NCBI GenBank assembly: GCA_024742495.1
Contig: JANSYJ010000001.1
Coordinates: 558,001 to 622,000, forward strand
Reading direction: 5' to 3'
DNA from: Bacteroidota bacterium
Lineage (GTDB): Bacteria > Bacteroidota > Bacteroidia > Flavobacteriales > Schleiferiaceae
Length of the DNA stretch: 64,000 bases
Under the pieces are notes generated by a model. That model did no database searches and was not told the DNA's origin. It saw only the letters and a program-made list of their open reading frames with translations. Made by a program: the position numbers and the translations under genes. Each line of letters starts with the position of its first letter. Positions within the stretch are counted from its first letter, which is position 1. Below, piece after piece: positions 38,059-45,120 of the stretch.

Positions 38059-38066
38059 TACTTTTG
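38059..38066 (+). promoter_or_regulatory. -7 promoter box of the hydroxylase-protease-CBM48 run
   Basis: TACTTTTG, an exact consensus match, ends 4 bases before the ATG at 38071. The transcript would be leaderless or nearly so. Confidence 0.5.
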
Positions 38067-38070
38067 GGAG

Positions 38071-38946
38071 ATGGATTTCAATTTCCCGAATTTAATCCAC
38101 CACGCTATCCCCTTTTTTGTGGGTTTCGTATTGTTGGAAATCGTGCTTACGTCAATTCGGCGTATTGCCACCTATGAAGCTAAGGATGCCCTAAGTAGCA
38201 TTGGCATGGGTTTGGGAAATGTTGCAGTGGGCATAGTGAGTAAGACTCTTATTTTCGGCGCCTACCTCTTTGTTTATGAATACCGCATCTTTACCTTGGA
38301 AAGCACCTGGTGGATGTGGCTTCTACTTTTTTTAGGGGATGACTTCAGTTATTATTGGTTTCATCGCAGTTCGCATAACATCCGCTACTTCTGGGCCAGC
38401 CACGTTGTTCATCATAGTTCCCAGAAGTATAATCTGGCCACAGCCTTACGCCAAACGTGGACGGGAGGAATAAGCGGGAGTTTTATTTTCTATCTGTGGA
38501 TGCCCTTGCTGGGTTTTCATCCTTTGGCCATCTTGTTCATGCACAGCATTAGCTTATTATATCAATTTTGGATTCATACCGAGTTAATTGATCGGATGCC
38601 CCGATGGTTCGAGTATATTTTTAATACCCCTTCTCATCACCGGGTACATCACTCTAGTGATGCGAAGTATTTAGATCGAAATCACGCTGGCATTTTAATC
38701 ATTTGGGATCGAATGTTTGGCACCTTCACCGAGGAGGAAGAGCATCCAACTTATGGCCTAACAACAAATATTAAAAGCTTTAATCCGCTGTATATAGCGA
38801 GCCACGAGTGGCTAGCGATTTTTAAGGACTTATGGGCCCACCCGCGTTATGCTTGGCAGTATCTCTTTGGTCCTCCCGGTTGGAGTCATGATGGCTCTCG
38901 TAAAACCAGCGCTCAATTGAGGGCAGAAAGAAATAAGGCTCTTTGA
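38071..38946 (+). CDS. Fatty acid hydroxylase/sterol desaturase superfamily membrane protein
   Basis: A 291-residue membrane protein with about four hydrophobic segments and the di-iron histidine clusters of the family: HRSSH (HxxxH), HVVHHSS and the third cluster SHHRVHHSSD, with an additional NHAG. Such enzymes hydroxylate or desaturate lipids or ether lipids with O2. The substrate cannot be told, and Bacteroidota often carry several. It overlaps the next gene by 4 bases and starts the three-gene run with the aspartyl protease and CBM48-like protein. Confidence 0.82.
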   Translation: MDFNFPNLIHHAIPFFVGFVLLEIVLTSIRRIATYEAKDALSSIGMGLGNVAVGIVSKTLIFGAYLFVYEYRIFTLESTWWMWLLLFLGDDFSYYWFHRSSHNIRYFWASHVVHHSSQKYNLATALRQTWTGGISGSFIFYLWMPLLGFHPLAILFMHSISLLYQFWIHTELIDRMPRWFEYIFNTPSHHRVHHSSDAKYLDRNHAGILIIWDRMFGTFTEEEEHPTYGLTTNIKSFNPLYIASHEWLAIFKDLWAHPRYAWQYLFGPPGWSHDGSRKTSAQLRAERNKAL

Positions 38947-39908
38947 TTAGTCGCTTCCTCATCTTGACCCTTTGTGCTCTTAACCTAAGCTTAGAAGCCT
39001 TTAATCCTCCACTGGAGCTAAAGACCTTTGCTTATAATCGCCGCTTAATTGCACAGCGACCAGTGCCAAAGGGCGACTTTAAAAAATTGGTTATTCCCGT
39101 AAAGAGAGTGGGGAACCTTATAATCGTAGAGGCCACTGTGGACGGCATTAAGGGAAATTTTATATTTGATACTGGAGCGCCATATTTGGTTTTAAACGCC
39201 ACTTATTTTAGAGATTATGAAGAGGATCCACAGCATTTGGCTACCGATGTAACCGGGAATTTAGTGCCTCAAAAAATCACTAAGGTGGATCGCCTAAAAA
39301 TGCTGGGGATGCATTATGAGGGCTTAGAAGCCGATGTGGCCGATCTCTCAACTATAGAAAACCGCAGAGGTATTCAGATTTTAGGACTTTTAGGGGTAAA
39401 CCTCTTTATGCGAATGGAGATTGAACTCGATCTTCAAAATGAGCAATTGATTGTTTACCGCGTTGATCGCGATGGCCGGAGGTTGGATAAGCCCTACCTT
39501 CCGCAGACCGGCGAGTACCGAAAAAAGTTTGAACTGGAGAACAATGCAATTATCGCTGAAGGCAGTATCGCTGGTATTCCTTTAGATATGTGCTTTGATA
39601 CCGGTGCAGAAGTACTACTCTTAGATAATGATTTATCAGCGCAAGCTTATGAACAGATGCGCATATTGAGAACAGCTGAATTAAATGGTGCTGGAGGGAA
39701 TAGCACCGAAGTACTATTTGGCGCATTACGGGCATTGGAGTTTGGGCCTAGCTTAAAAAGCTGCCAAGTAATGATAGCGGACCTCGAAGAAATTGGTCGC
39801 GCTTATGGCCATCCGGTTGATGGATTTGTAGGCTTTGACCTTTTACGGCGAGGCTCCGTATGCATAAATTTTAAAACTAAGGAATTGATTATTAATGTTT
39901 ACCCGTAG
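38943..39908 (+). CDS. Exported aspartyl protease-like protein with two DTG motifs
   Basis: A 321-residue protein starting at TTG in a 4-base overlap with the preceding stop. A stop lies in frame just upstream and no ATG occurs near, so TTG is the only plausible start for the hydrophobic signal-like stretch (ISRFLILTLCALNLSLEAF). Two repeats of the retropepsin type follow: FIFDTGAP (D76) with GLLGVNLF, and MCFDTGAE (D219) with GFVGFDLLRRG. One chain thus has two catalytic-lobe signatures, as in pepsin-like duplicates. The signal points to periplasm or outer surface. The substrate is unknown. It overlaps the CBM48-like gene by 14 bases. Confidence 0.75.
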   Translation: MISRFLILTLCALNLSLEAFNPPLELKTFAYNRRLIAQRPVPKGDFKKLVIPVKRVGNLIIVEATVDGIKGNFIFDTGAPYLVLNATYFRDYEEDPQHLATDVTGNLVPQKITKVDRLKMLGMHYEGLEADVADLSTIENRRGIQILGLLGVNLFMRMEIELDLQNEQLIVYRVDRDGRRLDKPYLPQTGEYRKKFELENNAIIAEGSIAGIPLDMCFDTGAEVLLLDNDLSAQAYEQMRILRTAELNGAGGNSTEVLFGALRALEFGPSLKSCQVMIADLEEIGRAYGHPVDGFVGFDLLRRGSVCINFKTKELIINVYP

Positions 39909-41325
39909 ATACATAGGGCTGCTATTTGTGCTTCTTCTGGGTGCGATTCGTTTTGCATCGGCTCAAGAGATGGAAGGGGTGGAGTATAAAATAGAAGGCA
40001 CCGACCTCTATTGCTACATTGACCGCGACATTGAAAGCGCGCAACTAGATAGTTTATTAGGCACCTGCGGTATCGATTTTAATCAATTATTAGAATTGCA
40101 GCGCAGTGGGGCTTTAAGTCCACAATATTGGTCGGTAAGCGCTTTAAGTGAAGAGCAGATTGTGTTGCAAAAATCAATGCTTAAGTTAAAGGGGAAGCCC
40201 CAAAGTCAGAAAGAAATACTCAGCCTTTTTGTAGGAGAAGAAAAGAGCAATGCGGCCCATATTAAATTTGGCTACAACGACTTTATAAAACCCGCAGTAA
40301 TTGAACTGGACAATGGATTTACCCGCTTCTTTCTCAAAGTTCAGGGCAATGCGCAATCGGTATTGCTAAGTGGCACATTTAACGAATGGAGCACCAGCTC
40401 TCACCCGATGAATCCTTGTGATAGTGGTTTTTTCCTCGACCTTAAGCTGGCTGATGGCGCTCATCTATATAAATACATTGTAAACGGTTATTGGATACTA
40501 GATCCGCGCAATAGCGTAAAGGAGATGGATTGGGCCGGAAATGAGAACTCCGTTTACTTTAAAACCAATACTGAGTTTAAGCTAGAAGGAAATTTAGCTG
40601 CGAAGGAAGTGGTGCTGGCCGGTAGCTTTAATGATTGGAATGAACAGCTGTACACTTTGCAGAAAACCCCTTGGGGCTGGCAGCGAAAATGCTTTTTGAA
40701 GGAAGGTACCCATGCTTATAAATATATAGTTGATGGTGAATGGATCTTAGATCCCGGCAACAAAACGGTGCGATCCGATGGCGACGGAAATGAAAACAGC
40801 TTTATTGCGGTTGGGGATACCTTTTACTTTTTTTATCCGCGGCATTTAAAAGCCGAATACGTTATTGTATCGGGTAATTTTAACGACTGGAATGAGGAGG
40901 AGTTAAAAATGAGCTTGAGCGATTCGGGATGGGTATTGCCCTATGTTTTGCCTGCGGGAAATTATGAGTACAAGTTTAGAGTGGCCGGGCAAGCGCTGTG
41001 GCAGTTAGACCCTTTGAACCCCATTAGCACCGGCCTTGAAAAGCATCGGAATTCGGTATTGTGTATAAAGGCTAATCAACACTTCTTTTACCCGCATCAA
41101 GCTAATGCTGATGAAGTTCTTTTAAGTGGCGACTTTAACGGCTGGCAAGAGCATGGTTACCGCATGGAAAGAGCCTCCGATGGTTGGCATATCGATATAT
41201 ATCTACCCAAAGGTAAAACGCGCTATAAGTTTATTGCCGATGGCAAGTGGATACGGGATCCTTCCAACCCGCTTTTTGAACCCAATGAATACGATGGCTA
41301 TAATTCGGTATTATGGCGAAGGTGA
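39895..41325 (+). CDS. Exported protein with four tandem AMPK-beta/CBM48-like modules
   Basis: A 476-residue protein with a signal peptide (1-23), an N-terminal unknown region (about 25-140), and four modules at about 142-223, 225-306, 307-391 and 394-476. Each has the [VL]xxSGxFNxW core, a helical turn, and YK[YF]xxxGxW.LDPxN, typical of the AMPK-beta/CBM48 E-set family that binds glycogen or other alpha-glucans. No catalytic domain is seen, so it may be a glucan sensor, anchor or partner. There is no T9SS domain, which suggests a periplasmic location. It overlaps the protease gene by 14 bases. The glycan specificity is inferred. Confidence 0.75.
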   Translation: MFTRRYIGLLFVLLLGAIRFASAQEMEGVEYKIEGTDLYCYIDRDIESAQLDSLLGTCGIDFNQLLELQRSGALSPQYWSVSALSEEQIVLQKSMLKLKGKPQSQKEILSLFVGEEKSNAAHIKFGYNDFIKPAVIELDNGFTRFFLKVQGNAQSVLLSGTFNEWSTSSHPMNPCDSGFFLDLKLADGAHLYKYIVNGYWILDPRNSVKEMDWAGNENSVYFKTNTEFKLEGNLAAKEVVLAGSFNDWNEQLYTLQKTPWGWQRKCFLKEGTHAYKYIVDGEWILDPGNKTVRSDGDGNENSFIAVGDTFYFFYPRHLKAEYVIVSGNFNDWNEEELKMSLSDSGWVLPYVLPAGNYEYKFRVAGQALWQLDPLNPISTGLEKHRNSVLCIKANQHFFYPHQANADEVLLSGDFNGWQEHGYRMERASDGWHIDIYLPKGKTRYKFIADGKWIRDPSNPLFEPNEYDGYNSVLWRR

Positions 41326-41365: not shown

Positions 41366-42124
41366 ATGCCCAGCAGAAAACTTCCTTTTACCGATAGTCT
41401 TTCCACTATTTTTAATGATGCCAAAGGCTTTACGGCCTTGTTCCTTTTCTTGGTTAGCGCTTTCATTATCCAAAGTCTGCTGCCTTATTTAGATTTAAAG
41501 GCTTTTTTCTTCTTGAGGGGAGAACTAGAAACTACTACCGGAATAATTAGCGACGTGGCGGTAATTGACGTGATGGATGATAATGGCCAGTTTAATGCCT
41601 ACACTTATAATTTCGATTCGCCAATAGGGCCATTGCAGTGGGTGTCTTACGGTGAAGGAGGGCTGATAAAATACAATATTGGCAAGCGCGTGAAAATTGA
41701 ATATCATCCTGATAATCCGCAGATTAGTCGCATTGTTGGTTTGACCAACACGCCCGGAGGAAAAACCTACATTTCCTTTTTATTAGGTCCCTTGATATCA
41801 GGCTTGTATTTGCTTTACTGCCTAATAGTAGGTTTTCGGAAGTATCAATTGCTGAGCAAGGGGATTATTGGCAAAGGGAAGCTAAAAGATAAAATTGGAC
41901 TTAGGGGAACCGTGGAAGATCGTCCGGTTTATAAAATGACTTTTGAGTTTAAAGCCAGAGATGGAATGAACTATATCGTAGAAGCGAAATCGCATCAGCC
42001 TGAAAAGCTGGAAGACGAGGAGGAGGAGTTGCTAATTTATTGGCCCAGCAATCCTAAACGCGCGGTATTAGTGGATGACTTGCCTTATAATTTACCTGAT
42101 TATATCCGATATAATTGCCTTTAA
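41366..42124 (+). CDS. DUF3592-like membrane protein
   Basis: A 252-residue protein with two transmembrane segments (about 22-40 and 130-150) and the extracytoplasmic pattern of DUF3592 proteins: TTGIISDVAVIDV, the VKIEYHPDNPQISRIVG strand, and a C-terminal second copy-like half (GKGKLKDKIGLRG...VYKMTFEFKA, then ELLIYWPSNPKRAVLVDDLP). The function is unknown. The ATG is 40 bases after the CBM48 gene. Confidence 0.6.
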   Translation: MPSRKLPFTDSLSTIFNDAKGFTALFLFLVSAFIIQSLLPYLDLKAFFFLRGELETTTGIISDVAVIDVMDDNGQFNAYTYNFDSPIGPLQWVSYGEGGLIKYNIGKRVKIEYHPDNPQISRIVGLTNTPGGKTYISFLLGPLISGLYLLYCLIVGFRKYQLLSKGIIGKGKLKDKIGLRGTVEDRPVYKMTFEFKARDGMNYIVEAKSHQPEKLEDEEEELLIYWPSNPKRAVLVDDLPYNLPDYIRYNCL

Positions 42125-42194: not shown

Positions 42195-42788
42195 ATGTTG
42201 CATCCATTAAAAAGGCTTGGGCTAATTCTAAGCCTTTGTATTACGCCCTTATTAGCGCAAACACCAGACGACTTTTATCGCGAATTAGCTATTGCCGCTA
42301 AAGCGATAGAGGATCCAAGTATATATTACGACCCCAGCTATTTTAGCATAGATTATCCAATGGGAGATATCCCCTCAACAAAAGGCGTTTGTACCGATGT
42401 TGTTATACGCGCCTATCGAAAATTGGGAATAGACTTACAGGAATTAGTGCATGAAGACATGCGCCAAAACTTTACGCTTTACCCTTCTAATTGGGGGCTT
42501 AAAAAGGCAGATTCAAATATCGACCATCGTCGAGTTCCCAATTTAATGTGCTTCTTTGGGCGAAAAGGAGAAACACTAGTAAAAAGCACCAGGGCCGAAG
42601 ATTACCAAGCTGGAGATATCGTTTGTTGGAGTTTAGGCGGTGGGATTACGCATATCGGCCTTGTTTTACAAGAGCGCTCCAGTGATGGGCTGCGTCCTTT
42701 GCTCATGCATAATATCGGTAATGGCCAAGTGGCGGAAGACCTATTATTCGACTTCACCATAATTGGCCACTACCGATATAAACCCTAA
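42195..42788 (+). CDS. DUF1287-type exported protein, YiiX/NlpC-P60-like fold
   Basis: A 197-residue protein with a signal peptide (MLHPLKRLGLILSLCITPLLAQ). The body carries the DUF1287 pattern: YFSIDYPMGDIPSTKGVCTDVVIRAYRKLGIDLQELVHEDM with a conserved cysteine, then the DYQAGDIVCWSLGGGITHIGLVL segment. Members resemble NlpC/P60 hydrolases that trim peptidoglycan peptides. The cysteine and histidine in these motifs could be catalytic, but the activity is not proven for the family. A TATATTCG box (42153-42160) could be its promoter. Confidence 0.72.
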   Translation: MLHPLKRLGLILSLCITPLLAQTPDDFYRELAIAAKAIEDPSIYYDPSYFSIDYPMGDIPSTKGVCTDVVIRAYRKLGIDLQELVHEDMRQNFTLYPSNWGLKKADSNIDHRRVPNLMCFFGRKGETLVKSTRAEDYQAGDIVCWSLGGGITHIGLVLQERSSDGLRPLLMHNIGNGQVAEDLLFDFTIIGHYRYKP

Positions 42789-44089
42789 TAGAGTTCTACT
42801 TTCATTTCGTAACCATCTATAAGAATATTAAAGCCTTCGCCTTCTTTGCGGGCAATGCTTCTCACTTTGGCGATGGTTTCATTTCCGTTTTCGCTAATCT
42901 CCCCGCTGGCGGCTGCTTTGCGGTAATCGATGTTTCCATAGCGCATATTGGCAACCAAGTCAAAAATGGCCTCGGCGGTGTTTATTTCCACCTTCATATA
43001 CTTTCCATTGATGCTAATGTTTCCTTTGGCGCCACTTAGCTTATCAATACGCACCGTGCTTTCATATCCATTGAGGCTGTAGCTTTCATCAAGGGCATCA
43101 ATCTCATGCTTGCAGTATTTGCTATCACCGGCATTCATCGCTTTCAGCACTTTAATGCGCATGCGATCCTCAAAGGCCTGCTCCACATTTACCTGCTCCA
43201 CCTGATCAATATCATAACGACTGTACTTGGAGTCGCTCAAATTCATTGACTTCACTTCCTTAATCTTAAAGCGACTTTCATAACTTACTACCGCAAAGCT
43301 TTTTACGCGTTCGGCGATTAAGCTAGAATACTTGAAGTTGCCACTAAAAGCCTTTAAACGTTGAAGTTCAATTTCACTTTCATAGGCCTCAACATCGAGG
43401 GTTTTAATATCCCTCGAGCGCAATTGGCAATACTTGATATTCAATTTCAGCTCGTCTATTTGCTCGGCTTGTAAGTCATTTTCATAAAGGTATATATCAC
43501 CTTTGTCGAGGCGTTTTAGATAAGCCTCGCCATATTTTAAACTTAGCTTGGCCTCTTTAACTTTATCCAAGGCCAAGCGACCGCTGTACTGGCTCAACTC
43601 CAGTTGATTCAAGTTTCCATCAATGCGAAGATCGCGGTAGGAATGCTTGATGTTCACCTTGCCTTTAGCCGGCATTTTAATGCGATACTCCAATTGCACT
43701 TCGTCCTTAGAGTAGGTATATTGTAGAATCACAAAATCGGCCACACCCAACTTCACCTTTTCAGGTAATGATCGGTAGGTTTCTATGCGAACTGCGCCTG
43801 GGGATTGGAGGATTCCCTCTTCAATATGCTGCTGAAACTGTCCTAGAAATTCGGTGATTTTATCGCTGTTCTTTTCTCCGCGATAGCGAAAGATTGCTTC
43901 AATTTCAATACGTGGCTCATCCCATATTTCAATGTGCATATCGGTATTGCTACCATCAATTTCAATATTTACATCTTTTTCAACCTCTAGGTTTACACTA
44001 GCGGTTTTTTCGATGCGCGTAAGTCCGGCGCTAGCCCAAGCCGTGCTGAGTGATAGGCCAAATAAGATACTATAAACTAAGCTTTTCAT
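42785..44089 (-). CDS. Exported beta-solenoid-like protein of the DUF4097 kind
   Basis: A 434-residue protein with a signal peptide (1-20). The body is built from many short beta strands with recurring 'Y-x-S/K-x-R/E' steps (KVNIKHSYRDLRIDGNL; FSGNFKYSSLIAERVKSFAVVSYESRFKIKEV; AMNAGDSKYCKHEIDALDESYSLNGYESTVRI), as in adhesin-like DUF4097 proteins. It is the last gene of a sigma factor/membrane protein/solenoid operon, overlapping the previous gene by 20 bases. Bacteroidota operons of this type often act as envelope-sensing units. The ligand is unknown. Confidence 0.62.
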   Translation of the reverse strand: MKSLVYSILFGLSLSTAWASAGLTRIEKTASVNLEVEKDVNIEIDGSNTDMHIEIWDEPRIEIEAIFRYRGEKNSDKITEFLGQFQQHIEEGILQSPGAVRIETYRSLPEKVKLGVADFVILQYTYSKDEVQLEYRIKMPAKGKVNIKHSYRDLRIDGNLNQLELSQYSGRLALDKVKEAKLSLKYGEAYLKRLDKGDIYLYENDLQAEQIDELKLNIKYCQLRSRDIKTLDVEAYESEIELQRLKAFSGNFKYSSLIAERVKSFAVVSYESRFKIKEVKSMNLSDSKYSRYDIDQVEQVNVEQAFEDRMRIKVLKAMNAGDSKYCKHEIDALDESYSLNGYESTVRIDKLSGAKGNISINGKYMKVEINTAEAIFDLVANMRYGNIDYRKAAASGEISENGNETIAKVRSIARKEGEGFNILIDGYEMKVELY

Positions 44090-44594
44090 TTTCTATGATT
44101 TTTTGATTTCGTTCAATTTCCATTTGTAGTCGACGCAAGAGGCGTAAACGTTTTTCGTAATAGTCGATAAGCACCCCAAGAAGCTCCTCCTTTGGAACCG
44201 GAGTATTTAAATCGGCGCGATATTGATTGTTAATGCCCTCGAGCTCCTCTAATTCTTCAAATACCCAAGCGTAATCGGGGTTCGAGGCAATTTGAGATAA
44301 GTCTATTTGCGCCTCAATCATTTGTAAGTCTTGCTGATAATTAGCCTCCTGCGCTAAAAAGCCAGCTGGTAAGTTCACCTTAGGATCCGCGTCTGCAATA
44401 GGCTCCGGATCGGCTTGATTCCACCAAAAGCCAATGCTCAGTAAAATCACCGCAGCGGCCGACCACTGCCAGTACATTTTTCCGGTTTTTTTCTCCTGAG
44501 GAATATGTTCTTTTAGTCCGGTCCATATTCCTTCTGGCGGCTCTGCCTCATCGAAGCTTTGGCGGTTCTCCCGCATCCAATTATCGAGTTTCAT
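44070..44594 (-). CDS. Small single-pass membrane protein, probable anti-sigma factor
   Basis: A 174-residue protein. Residues 1-38 are hydrophilic, as in an anti-sigma domain (KLDNWMRENRQSFDEAEPPEGIWTGLKEHIPQ). One transmembrane segment follows (about 45-60) with an external helical region rich in Glu and Gln. It lies between an ECF sigma gene and a solenoid protein, overlapping the sigma gene by 14 bases and the next by 20. This order strongly suggests that it holds the sigma factor at the membrane. No zinc motif (HxxxCxxC) is present. Confidence 0.6.
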   Translation of the reverse strand: MKLDNWMRENRQSFDEAEPPEGIWTGLKEHIPQEKKTGKMYWQWSAAAVILLSIGFWWNQADPEPIADADPKVNLPAGFLAQEANYQQDLQMIEAQIDLSQIASNPDYAWVFEELEELEGINNQYRADLNTPVPKEELLGVLIDYYEKRLRLLRRLQMEIERNQKIIENEKLSL

Positions 44595-45120
44595 AAACCA
44601 TCTTTAATTTTTCTTGCAATAATTGCTTGGCATAGCGCAACTGAGTCTTCGAGTTAGAAATACTCGTATTCAGTTCATTGGCAATCTCAGCATGACTGTA
44701 TTCCTCGAGGTAAAACAGTTGAAAGATTATCCTACATCCGGCAGGCAATTCATTAATGGCGCTTTGTATGGTGCCGAAAGCTAATTCGGGAATTTCCACT
44801 TCTTCCTCCCTGGCATCAAAATCATTTATTTCCTCTAAGGATAAAGGAAATTGTTTTTGTTTTCTAAGATGCTCAAGGCTTCTGTTAATGGCAATGCGTT
44901 TAATCCATCCGCCAAAGGCCTGCTCGTTTTCGAGTTTATCAATCTTTTCAAAAGCTTGGATAAAGCTTTCTTGCAAGAGGTCGCTCGCTATATCGCTCTG
45001 CGGCACAATTCGCAAAATCGTATTATAGGTTGCTTTGGCAAAATGCTGGTACAATTGAAAACCGGCTAGTTGGTTGCCTTTGCGAAGTGCTTTAATGTTC
45101 TTTTTAAGATCGATGCTCAA
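44581..45120 (-). CDS. ECF-type RNA polymerase sigma factor
   Basis: A 179-residue sigma-70 family factor, group 4. Region 2 contains DIASDLLQESFIQAFEKIDKLENEQAFGGWIKRIAINRSLEHLRKQ, and region 4 contains AINELPAGCRIIFQLFYLEEYSHAEIANELNTSISNSKTQLRYAKQLLQEKL. Its start is TTG at 45120: a TAA lies in frame just upstream and no ATG or GTG is available. It directs transcription of its own regulon, which probably includes its neighbours. It overlaps its likely anti-sigma gene by 14 bases. Confidence 0.9.
   Translation of the reverse strand: MSIDLKKNIKALRKGNQLAGFQLYQHFAKATYNTILRIVPQSDIASDLLQESFIQAFEKIDKLENEQAFGGWIKRIAINRSLEHLRKQKQFPLSLEEINDFDAREEEVEIPELAFGTIQSAINELPAGCRIIFQLFYLEEYSHAEIANELNTSISNSKTQLRYAKQLLQEKLKMVYETR

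Follow-up and report, generated by a model that had tools for sequence, protein, structure and literature searches.

Two of three overlapping genes in the window, the 64,000-nucleotide stretch of Bacteroidota DNA that was analysed, were found to form one two-gene module, which Bacteroidia genomes either carry whole or lack altogether. The first of the two encodes a predicted exported, two-lobed aspartic protease, and the second encodes a predicted exported protein with four AMPK-beta-type CBM48 modules. We propose, with a probability of about 0.45, that the exported CBM array is a targeting scaffold that holds the active protease at alpha-glucan. The pairing, gene order, domains and residues were observed, and from these we infer the docking and the cleavage of a protein.

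The three open reading frames lie on the + strand, as do all features described below, at 38071-38946, 38943-39908 and 39895-41325; the first two share 4 bases and the last two 14, and the start codon of the protease gene is TTG. Pfam searches assigned them to an FA_hydroxylase-superfamily membrane protein (PF04116, 6.1e-29), the pepsin/retropepsin-like aspartic protease (core gene 1; PF13650, 7e-20, and PF13975, in two stretches) and the CBM protein (core gene 2; PF16561, 6.7e-52, in four stretches). Both the overlaps and the families agreed with a preliminary description of this DNA, as did its exact Bacteroidota -7 box ahead of the run, TACTTTTG at 38059-38066, which begins 12 bases before the hydroxylase ATG.

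The search for neighbourhood co-occurrence across Bacteroidota that had been suggested there was run on the best 80 of 92 relatives, which were found with two peptide patterns from the CBM protein. In 77 of these 80 loci, a separate protease gene stood just ahead of the CBM gene in the same orientation. It was the immediate neighbour in 76 of the 77, and in L084 it adjoined a split CBM gene; in five loci (L060, L063, L095, L106 and L118) the protease reached a contig edge and was shortened in all except L063. A possible in-frame CBM start overlapped the protease gene in 68 of the 77 loci and was no more than 10 bases away in 7 more. The remaining three loci comprised an in-frame fusion of the protease with four CBMs (L133) and two loci cut by contig ends (L113 and L134), and the two proteins were therefore found together in 78 of the 78 loci that could be tested, 77 times as a pair and once fused. 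In the fusion, the N-terminal domain is gone and lobe 2 is incomplete, so it may be a decayed copy. Among 296 sampled Bacteroidia genomes (at least 90% complete, with the window's own genome included), the CBM protein was present in 15 and the protease was beside it in 15 of 15; three further carrier genomes were paired as well, giving 18/18. The search used cut-offs of 1e-40 for the CBM protein and 1e-20 for the protease and would miss more diverged copies, and these counts are not additive with those of the 80 loci, as the two sets may share species. Since the protease-CBM gene order recurs across the phylum, the locus is more than a chance arrangement.

The genes flanking the pair varied between lineages, and its carriers include the cultured isolates Mucilaginibacter flavidus and Rufibacter sediminis. 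No third gene family recurred near it in more than 10 of the best 80 loci, so that no pathway could be read from the context. DUF4097 and ECF-sigma genes were seen near the pair in two lineages (10/80 loci each, mostly close relatives) and were not counted as part of it. Protease distances correlated with those of the CBM modules (Spearman 0.74) and of the N-terminal domain (0.73), values that come without an unlinked control gene and were therefore not used as evidence of co-evolution. Literature searches returned no paper on the protease-CBM pair, which is a weak absence because most subscription papers lay outside their coverage.

The protease is predicted to be active, on the basis of its modelled fold and both catalytic aspartates. 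The AF2 model (pLDDT 90.8) revealed a bilobal all-beta fold, and the best Foldseek match was 9iy9 (E 2.1e-16, TMq 0.64, 18% identity), which is titled in the PDB as a putative endopeptidase of Bacteroides fragilis and differs from the window protease in having 420 aa; pepsins and tethered HIV protease followed at a probability of 1.00. Each lobe carries the Asp of a D-T/S-G motif, as in clan AA, and the window protein has DTG twice, at 39168-39176 (D76) and 39597-39605 (D219). In an alignment of 73 proteases (A5), both aspartates were kept in 73/73. The lobe 1 motif was otherwise almost uniform (G78 in 73/73; T77 in 69, with 4 Ser). The lobe 2 motif, which is followed by an invariant Ala-Glu, was more variable: position 220 was Thr in 52, Ser in 13, Cys in 7 and Phe in 1, and position 221 was Gly in 64 and Ala in 9, such that the T/S was replaced in 8 proteins and the G in 9. 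Activity is therefore not certain in every family member. At locus L168, a protease of the same type had a different N-terminal region, with a weak, below-cut-off match to DUF3887, which fits a protease that is steered by partner domains. Two other assignments within the run were rejected: PADLOC matches to the anti-phage defence family PDC-M08B (best 1.4e-8) are most likely caused by nothing more specific than an aspartic protease domain, and an NCBIfam match to a T9SS plug protein was weak (E 6e-4, 18.9 bits vs 100).

In the CBM protein, PF16561 (AMPK1_CBM) scored 174 bits against a cut-off of 26.8, and a genome profile search likewise gave four separate matches over the cut-off in this frame. 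The AF2 model had a pLDDT of 91.0, and superposition of module 4 on the AMPK-beta CBM with VIA-align gave a Z-score of 14.4 and an rmsd of 1.4-1.5 over 79-80 residues. According to the available text of PMC9788615, W100, K126, W133 and N150 of AMPK contact alpha-glucan. We found the corresponding residues in module 1 (40321-40569; W165, K193, W200 and N218), module 2 (40570-40818; W248, K276, W283 and N301), module 3 (40819-41073; W332, K360, W369 and N386), where they were least strictly kept, and module 4 (41074-41322; W417, K445, W452 and N470), the module retained in the G015 remnant. Across 74 family members (alignment A4), these equivalents were kept in 1147 of 1184 cells. Their mean majority fraction was 0.97, compared with 0.63 at the 253 other module positions; 40 of these 253 were also kept at 0.95 or above, so the contact residues do not stand out by conservation alone. 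Taken with the fold, the residues strongly predict that the array grips alpha-1,4-glucan (glycogen, starch or maltodextrin). Best matches between modules stayed with their own position in 19527 of 21608 comparisons, and because the modules keep this positional identity, the four-module array is old.

The N-terminal domain and linker (39964-40278) belong to no Pfam family, and a search at E<=5 gave nothing over the cut-off. DSSP of the model showed a strand-strand-helix-helix-strand-strand order at residues 29-94, behind which residues 99-115 fell below pLDDT 50. Few VIA-align rows reached this domain, and its mean identity was 23%, a poor conservation that is unhelpful for a docking role. Alignments A4 and A5 omit truncated or split copies (L060, L084, L095, L106 and L118), duplicates of genomes (L056-L059, L061, L121 and L127) and the near-duplicate L042; L113, L133 and L134 are in neither, and G021 (L048) is in A4 and not in A5.

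Both products are predicted from their sequences to be Sec-exported, which would place them in the periplasm or outside the cell. The signal peptide of the CBM protein (39895-39963) ends near Ser-Ala-Gln and has no lipobox, and a simple lipobox pattern was found in 0 of 71 CBM proteins. A stricter signal-peptide heuristic recognised 67 of 71 CBM orthologues, compared with 198 of 534 neighbouring ORFs, a control set that itself includes exported proteins; a laxer one recognised 71 of 71 for both the protease and the CBM protein and is too lax, with no control. These counts omit the six loci L060, L063, L084, L095, L106 and L118. The view that the run encodes exported CBM48-type modules without an enzyme thus held, as a signal peptide was predicted and no glycoside hydrolase was found in the chain.

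The hydroxylase, in contrast to the pair, is a family-specific operon neighbour, and the conserved unit of the run is its last two genes rather than all three. The protein matched only the superfamily PF04116, with an invariant His in a 15-way alignment, and fell short of the OlsE ornithine lipid hydroxylase (46.7 bits vs the NCBIfam NF052566 cut-off of 475). A single function had been suggested for the whole run. The part that stood is that the protease and CBM genes belong together; a function common to all three genes was largely refuted by gene context, and we regard it as extremely improbable. In its favour, the promoter box precedes the hydroxylase, and both the three-gene order (in 6 of 7 genus genomes) and the 4-base hydroxylase-protease overlap recur in the genus and in G033, a member of the same family. 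However, the hydroxylase was present in just 6 of the best 80 loci, all from the window's family, and it occurred without the pair in G006, G009, G013, G022 and G035. In the genus member G006 (L051), the same site was without the pair, and in G009 and G035 the slot behind the hydroxylase was occupied by a secreted subtilase. Whether the pair was there or not, MarC adjoined the hydroxylase in 13 of its 15 loci; elsewhere the pair follows other genes, such as DNA ligase in L069. Of 15 orthologous loci, 11 had a TAnnTTTG in the 60 bases ahead of the hydroxylase, at -12/-13 in 7, counts that do not include a chance expectation, and such boxes are also seen before hydroxylase genes that lack the pair (e.g. 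L055). The box TACTTTTG is probably the hydroxylase's own promoter.

To place the pair among known systems, we compared it with four of them. The available part of PMC4339375 describes PTST of plant plastids as a non-enzymatic CBM48 protein that recruits a separate enzyme to alpha-glucan and needs a W100/W133-type Trp pair for binding. The window pair shares the CBM48 protein without an enzyme, the separate partner enzyme and the Trp pair, and docking would be a further likeness. PTST differs in having one CBM48, a coiled coil, a starch synthase partner and a plastid location, whereas the window protein has four modules, an N-terminal domain modelled as strands and helices rather than a coiled coil, a protease partner and a predicted export signal. 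The AMPK beta subunit is similar in fold and in the four contact residues of each module; it has a single module in a kinase complex, whereas the window protein is a predicted exported tandem array of four. From the accessible text of PMC12239564, RloA of Pseudomonas aeruginosa is a secreted retropepsin-like protein, a single-DTG dimer with RloB (an inactive transglutaminase) and RloC (an ATP-grasp protein), that cleaves polyglutamate. The window protease is likewise a DTG aspartic protease, predicted to be exported, that is encoded with an operon partner, although its single chain carries both DTG lobes and its partner is a CBM array, and neither RloB nor RloC was found among the ten window genes scanned.

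SusE and SusF of Bacteroides are surface starch-binding lipoproteins of the sus locus, with several modules and no enzyme. They resemble the CBM protein as exported, enzyme-free arrays of starch-binding modules in Bacteroidota, so that the oddity claimed for enzyme-free, exported modules that bind glucan holds for CBM48 and is tempered by this parallel. They differ as surface lipoproteins with other module families, whereas the CBM protein showed no lipobox, is of the CBM48 type and has a protease partner; no SusCD was found among the ten window genes scanned.

In the mechanism that we favour, the CBM protein would be a soluble exported array whose four modules hold alpha-glucan, its N-terminal domain or modules would hold the protease there, and the protease would cut proteins that coat, bind or compete for the glucan. 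We infer from the pairing that the array works with the protease, and it probably positions it. Alternatively, the CBM protein may be a substrate or inhibitor of the protease, with glucan occupancy exposing or shielding the N-terminal domain and cleavage releasing a signal or activating the enzyme. One-to-one pairing and overlapping genes would suit an enzyme that has its own partner; the title of a reference cited in PMC4339375, as its available text gives it, calls the AMPK-beta CBM a glycogen-sensing domain; and the low-confidence residues 99-115 could be a cleavage site, although low model confidence is not evidence of cleavage. Such sensing appears unlikely, as no regulator recurs near the pair in more than 10 of the best 80 loci.

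A capture array beside a housekeeping protease is a little less likely again. Here, separate amylases would use glucan that the CBM protein holds at the surface or in the periplasm, and the protease, unguided by glucan, would mature or turn over exported proteins. The same genome does encode elsewhere an alpha-amylase with one AMPK1_CBM (L004; PF00128 3e-40, PF16561 9e-10), and SusE/SusF are a known precedent, but this explanation leaves the constant togetherness of the two proteins, in the testable loci and in the genome sample alike, without a reason. That the modules now bind something else, be it a protein or a different polysaccharide, is quite improbable: feruloyl esterases also bear CBM48 modules (6rzn and 8bf3 are among the structural neighbours), but each module retains the four positions that contact alpha-glucan, at a level well above that elsewhere in the modules.

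Finding the protease and CBM genes side by side in scattered Bacteroidota suggests a so far undescribed system in which protein cleavage is directed to a sugar polymer. More doubtful is its extension to glucan-directed proteolysis across Bacteroidia, in which the CBM48 array would deliver a dedicated protease, for instance to remove the proteins that coat glycogen particles set free by cell lysis, or rival proteins that sit on the glucan. According to the available text of PMC11093988, alpha-glucans of dead bacteria sustain other marine Flavobacteriia, a way of life that would be a possible setting for the pair. The strict pairing and conserved glucan-contact residues make the glucan-targeting idea directly testable. 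If the proposed scaffold role is true, the protease would join the enzymes that are steered by carbohydrate-binding modules, CBM48 arrays would be seen to function without a glycoside hydrolase and beyond the cytoplasm, and a hypothetical gene pair that recurs in Bacteroidota would gain a function.

The three overlapping plus-strand genes of the window were found exactly at the positions of the preliminary description, with overlaps of 4 and 14 bases. Pfam matched the first ORF (38071-38946) to FA_hydroxylase, the second (38943-39908) to aspartyl protease in two stretches and the third (39895-41325) to AMPK1_CBM in four stretches. The hydroxylase reached no named equivalog, its OlsE score lying far under the cut-off. 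Behind the CBM gene lie a DUF3592 gene (41366-42124; just over the cut-off) and a DUF1287 gene (42195-42788), which follow it in only some genomes, even within the genus.

Named genome contigs were scanned, and the best 80 of 92 loci were used for comparison. Their titles covered Bacteroidales, Chitinophagaceae, Mucilaginibacter, Rufibacter, Cyclobacteriaceae, Flavobacteriales, unspecified Bacteroidetes and two proteobacterial records; the latter (L067 and L074, Beijerinckiaceae, Alphaproteobacteria) contain the pair on contigs that are perhaps mis-binned Bacteroidota. In 77 of these 80 loci, a same-family protease gene precedes the CBM gene on the same strand; it was the immediately neighbouring ORF in 76, the remaining locus (L084) differing only by a split CBM gene, and five of the 77 proteases extend to a contig edge. 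The other three loci comprised an in-frame fusion (L133) and two loci interrupted by contig ends (L113 and L134), such that protease and CBM protein occurred together in all 78 testable loci. A possible in-frame CBM start overlapped the protease gene in 68 of the 77 loci and was at most 10 bases away in 7 more, with L084 and L106 as the exceptions. In contrast, the hydroxylase profile matched only 6 of the 80 loci, every one from the window's family, and no third gene family was found in more than 10 of the 80 (neighbours annotated for L069 only). The conserved unit is the protease-CBM pair, to which the hydroxylase does not belong; the -7 box was present, but the suggested single function of all three genes was not supported.

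The L133 fusion (L133:5407-7224, from a MAG) joins a protease with a shortened lobe 2 to four CBM modules, lacks the N-domain and represents either a rare fusion event or a copy in decay. In two distant lineages (window, 42785-45120; L069, 7424-10451, and relatives), we also observed an ECF sigma factor gene, a small gene and a DUF4097-like gene that lie downstream of the pair and are oriented convergently with it; the families concerned occur in 10 of the 80 loci.

In the genome samples, the CBM protein was present in 15 of 296 class genomes, the window's own among them, and each of the 15 had an adjacent same-strand protease. At a threshold of 1e-20, the protease was matched in 21 class genomes, leaving six without the CBM protein; these unpaired proteases scored 93-194 bits versus at least 229 for paired ones, and some had a different N-terminal region. 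The phylum sample yielded 8 of 345 genomes (six common to the class sample) and a sample of one order 4 of 21 (three already in other samples); the pair was present in each of the three further genomes. Shorter CBM versions were also paired: in family f3, L147 and L173 have three AMPK1_CBM stretches and L148 has two, as do L149 and L150 of family f75. The N-terminal region of L147 and L173 itself looks like a CBM48 module.

Closer to the window, the three-gene order was retained, being contiguous in 6 of 7 genus genomes, the window's own counted. The seventh, G006, has the hydroxylase without the pair, directly before the gene that comes immediately after the CBM gene in two relatives (L043 and L044); thus, the site exists without the pair. 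In the family, the CBM-protein profile (E<=1e-20) matched 11 of 88 genomes, ten at full length and one as a remnant. The protease was directly upstream of the CBM gene in all ten, although in G021 only its C-terminal half lies beside the CBM gene, where a contig begins; an N-terminal half is found at the end of another contig, behind ABC-transporter genes rather than the hydroxylase. The hydroxylase overlapped the pair in seven of the ten; in G024 the gene of a subtilase bearing a type IX secretion tail intervenes, and in G019 about 7 kb separate the two. Three other family genomes have a subtilase with such a tail (Pfam) in the position after the hydroxylase (L046:7479-10088, L052:7607-10210 and L053:8606-11221), and MarC adjoins the hydroxylase in 13 of 15 hydroxylase loci. 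The G015 remnant (L050:8381-8824) is one short ORF in which the protease N-terminus, signal peptide included, runs directly into module 4, the sole CBM module left; the contact residues of this module are intact, and it is possibly a working single-module exported binder.

The -7 box (TACTTTTG, 38059-38066) begins 12 bases 5' of the hydroxylase ATG. Since 11 of 15 hydroxylase loci, pair-less ones among them, have TAnnTTTG boxes no more than 60 bases upstream, this promoter is probably the hydroxylase's own. In 20 of 70 loci, a same-strand ORF precedes the protease by no more than 50 bases; of the 50 pairs without one, 13 have a -7 box close to the start of the protease ORF, versus 4.1 expected from shuffles, and in many cases the pair therefore seems to have a promoter of its own.

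The AF2 model of the protease (pLDDT 90.8) had 9iy9 from Bacteroides fragilis as its top solved match, followed by pepsins and tethered HIV protease. The catalytic Asp of both lobes was invariant in all 73 proteases; in lobe 2 the motif reads D-[T/S/C]-[G/A]-A-E, with Phe once at the second position. A paralogous two-lobed protease, approximately 37% identical and with a lipoprotein-like signal sequence, was observed in G000 (contig 26, 22821-23663; L162:5690-6682) and in L163, L164 and L165; in L162 it directly precedes a TonB-dependent receptor gene and a DUF4249 gene, a context unlike that of the pair. L166 and L168 contain a protease of the same type with a differing N-terminal region, the DUF3887 match of L168 being weak and under the cut-off.

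The CBM-protein model (74 sequences; pLDDT 91.0) predicted a signal helix, a small strand-strand-helix-helix-strand-strand domain and four β-sandwich modules, with a low-confidence stretch at 99-115. AMPK-β CBM was the top solved chain in the profile search, and module 4 superposed on it with a Z-score of 14.4 and an rmsd of 1.4-1.5 over 79-80 residues; matches to CBM48 chains were likewise obtained for module 1, with a lower Z-score. In AMPK, W100, K126, W133 and N150 touch β-cyclodextrin, as described in PMC9788615. Their equivalents, assigned from the HMMER alignment, were conserved in 1147 of 1184 cells (a mean of 0.97 versus 0.63 at 253 other module positions, 40 of which were also kept at >=0.95), least strictly in module 3, and this mean was never attained in 20000 random draws of 16 module positions. 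In 19527 of 21608 comparisons between proteins, a module matched the one at its own position; the four-module array is therefore old and was not homogenised. Signal peptides were assigned to 67 of 71 CBM proteins and to 58 of 71 proteases, versus 198 of 534 neighbouring ORFs.

Because a predicted exported protease is dedicatedly paired with a predicted exported α-glucan-binding array, the pair is most simply read as a targeting system, in which the array would bring its protease to α-glucan. Alternatively, the pair may be a sensor, or the protease and CBM protein may be only loosely associated. Targeting would resemble plant PTST, which, according to PMC4339375, carries starch synthase to starch, but here a protease would be carried to α-glucan. 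Marine Flavobacteriia use bacterial α-glucan as food, as described in PMC11093988, and this feeding, without a direct link, offers a setting for the pair.
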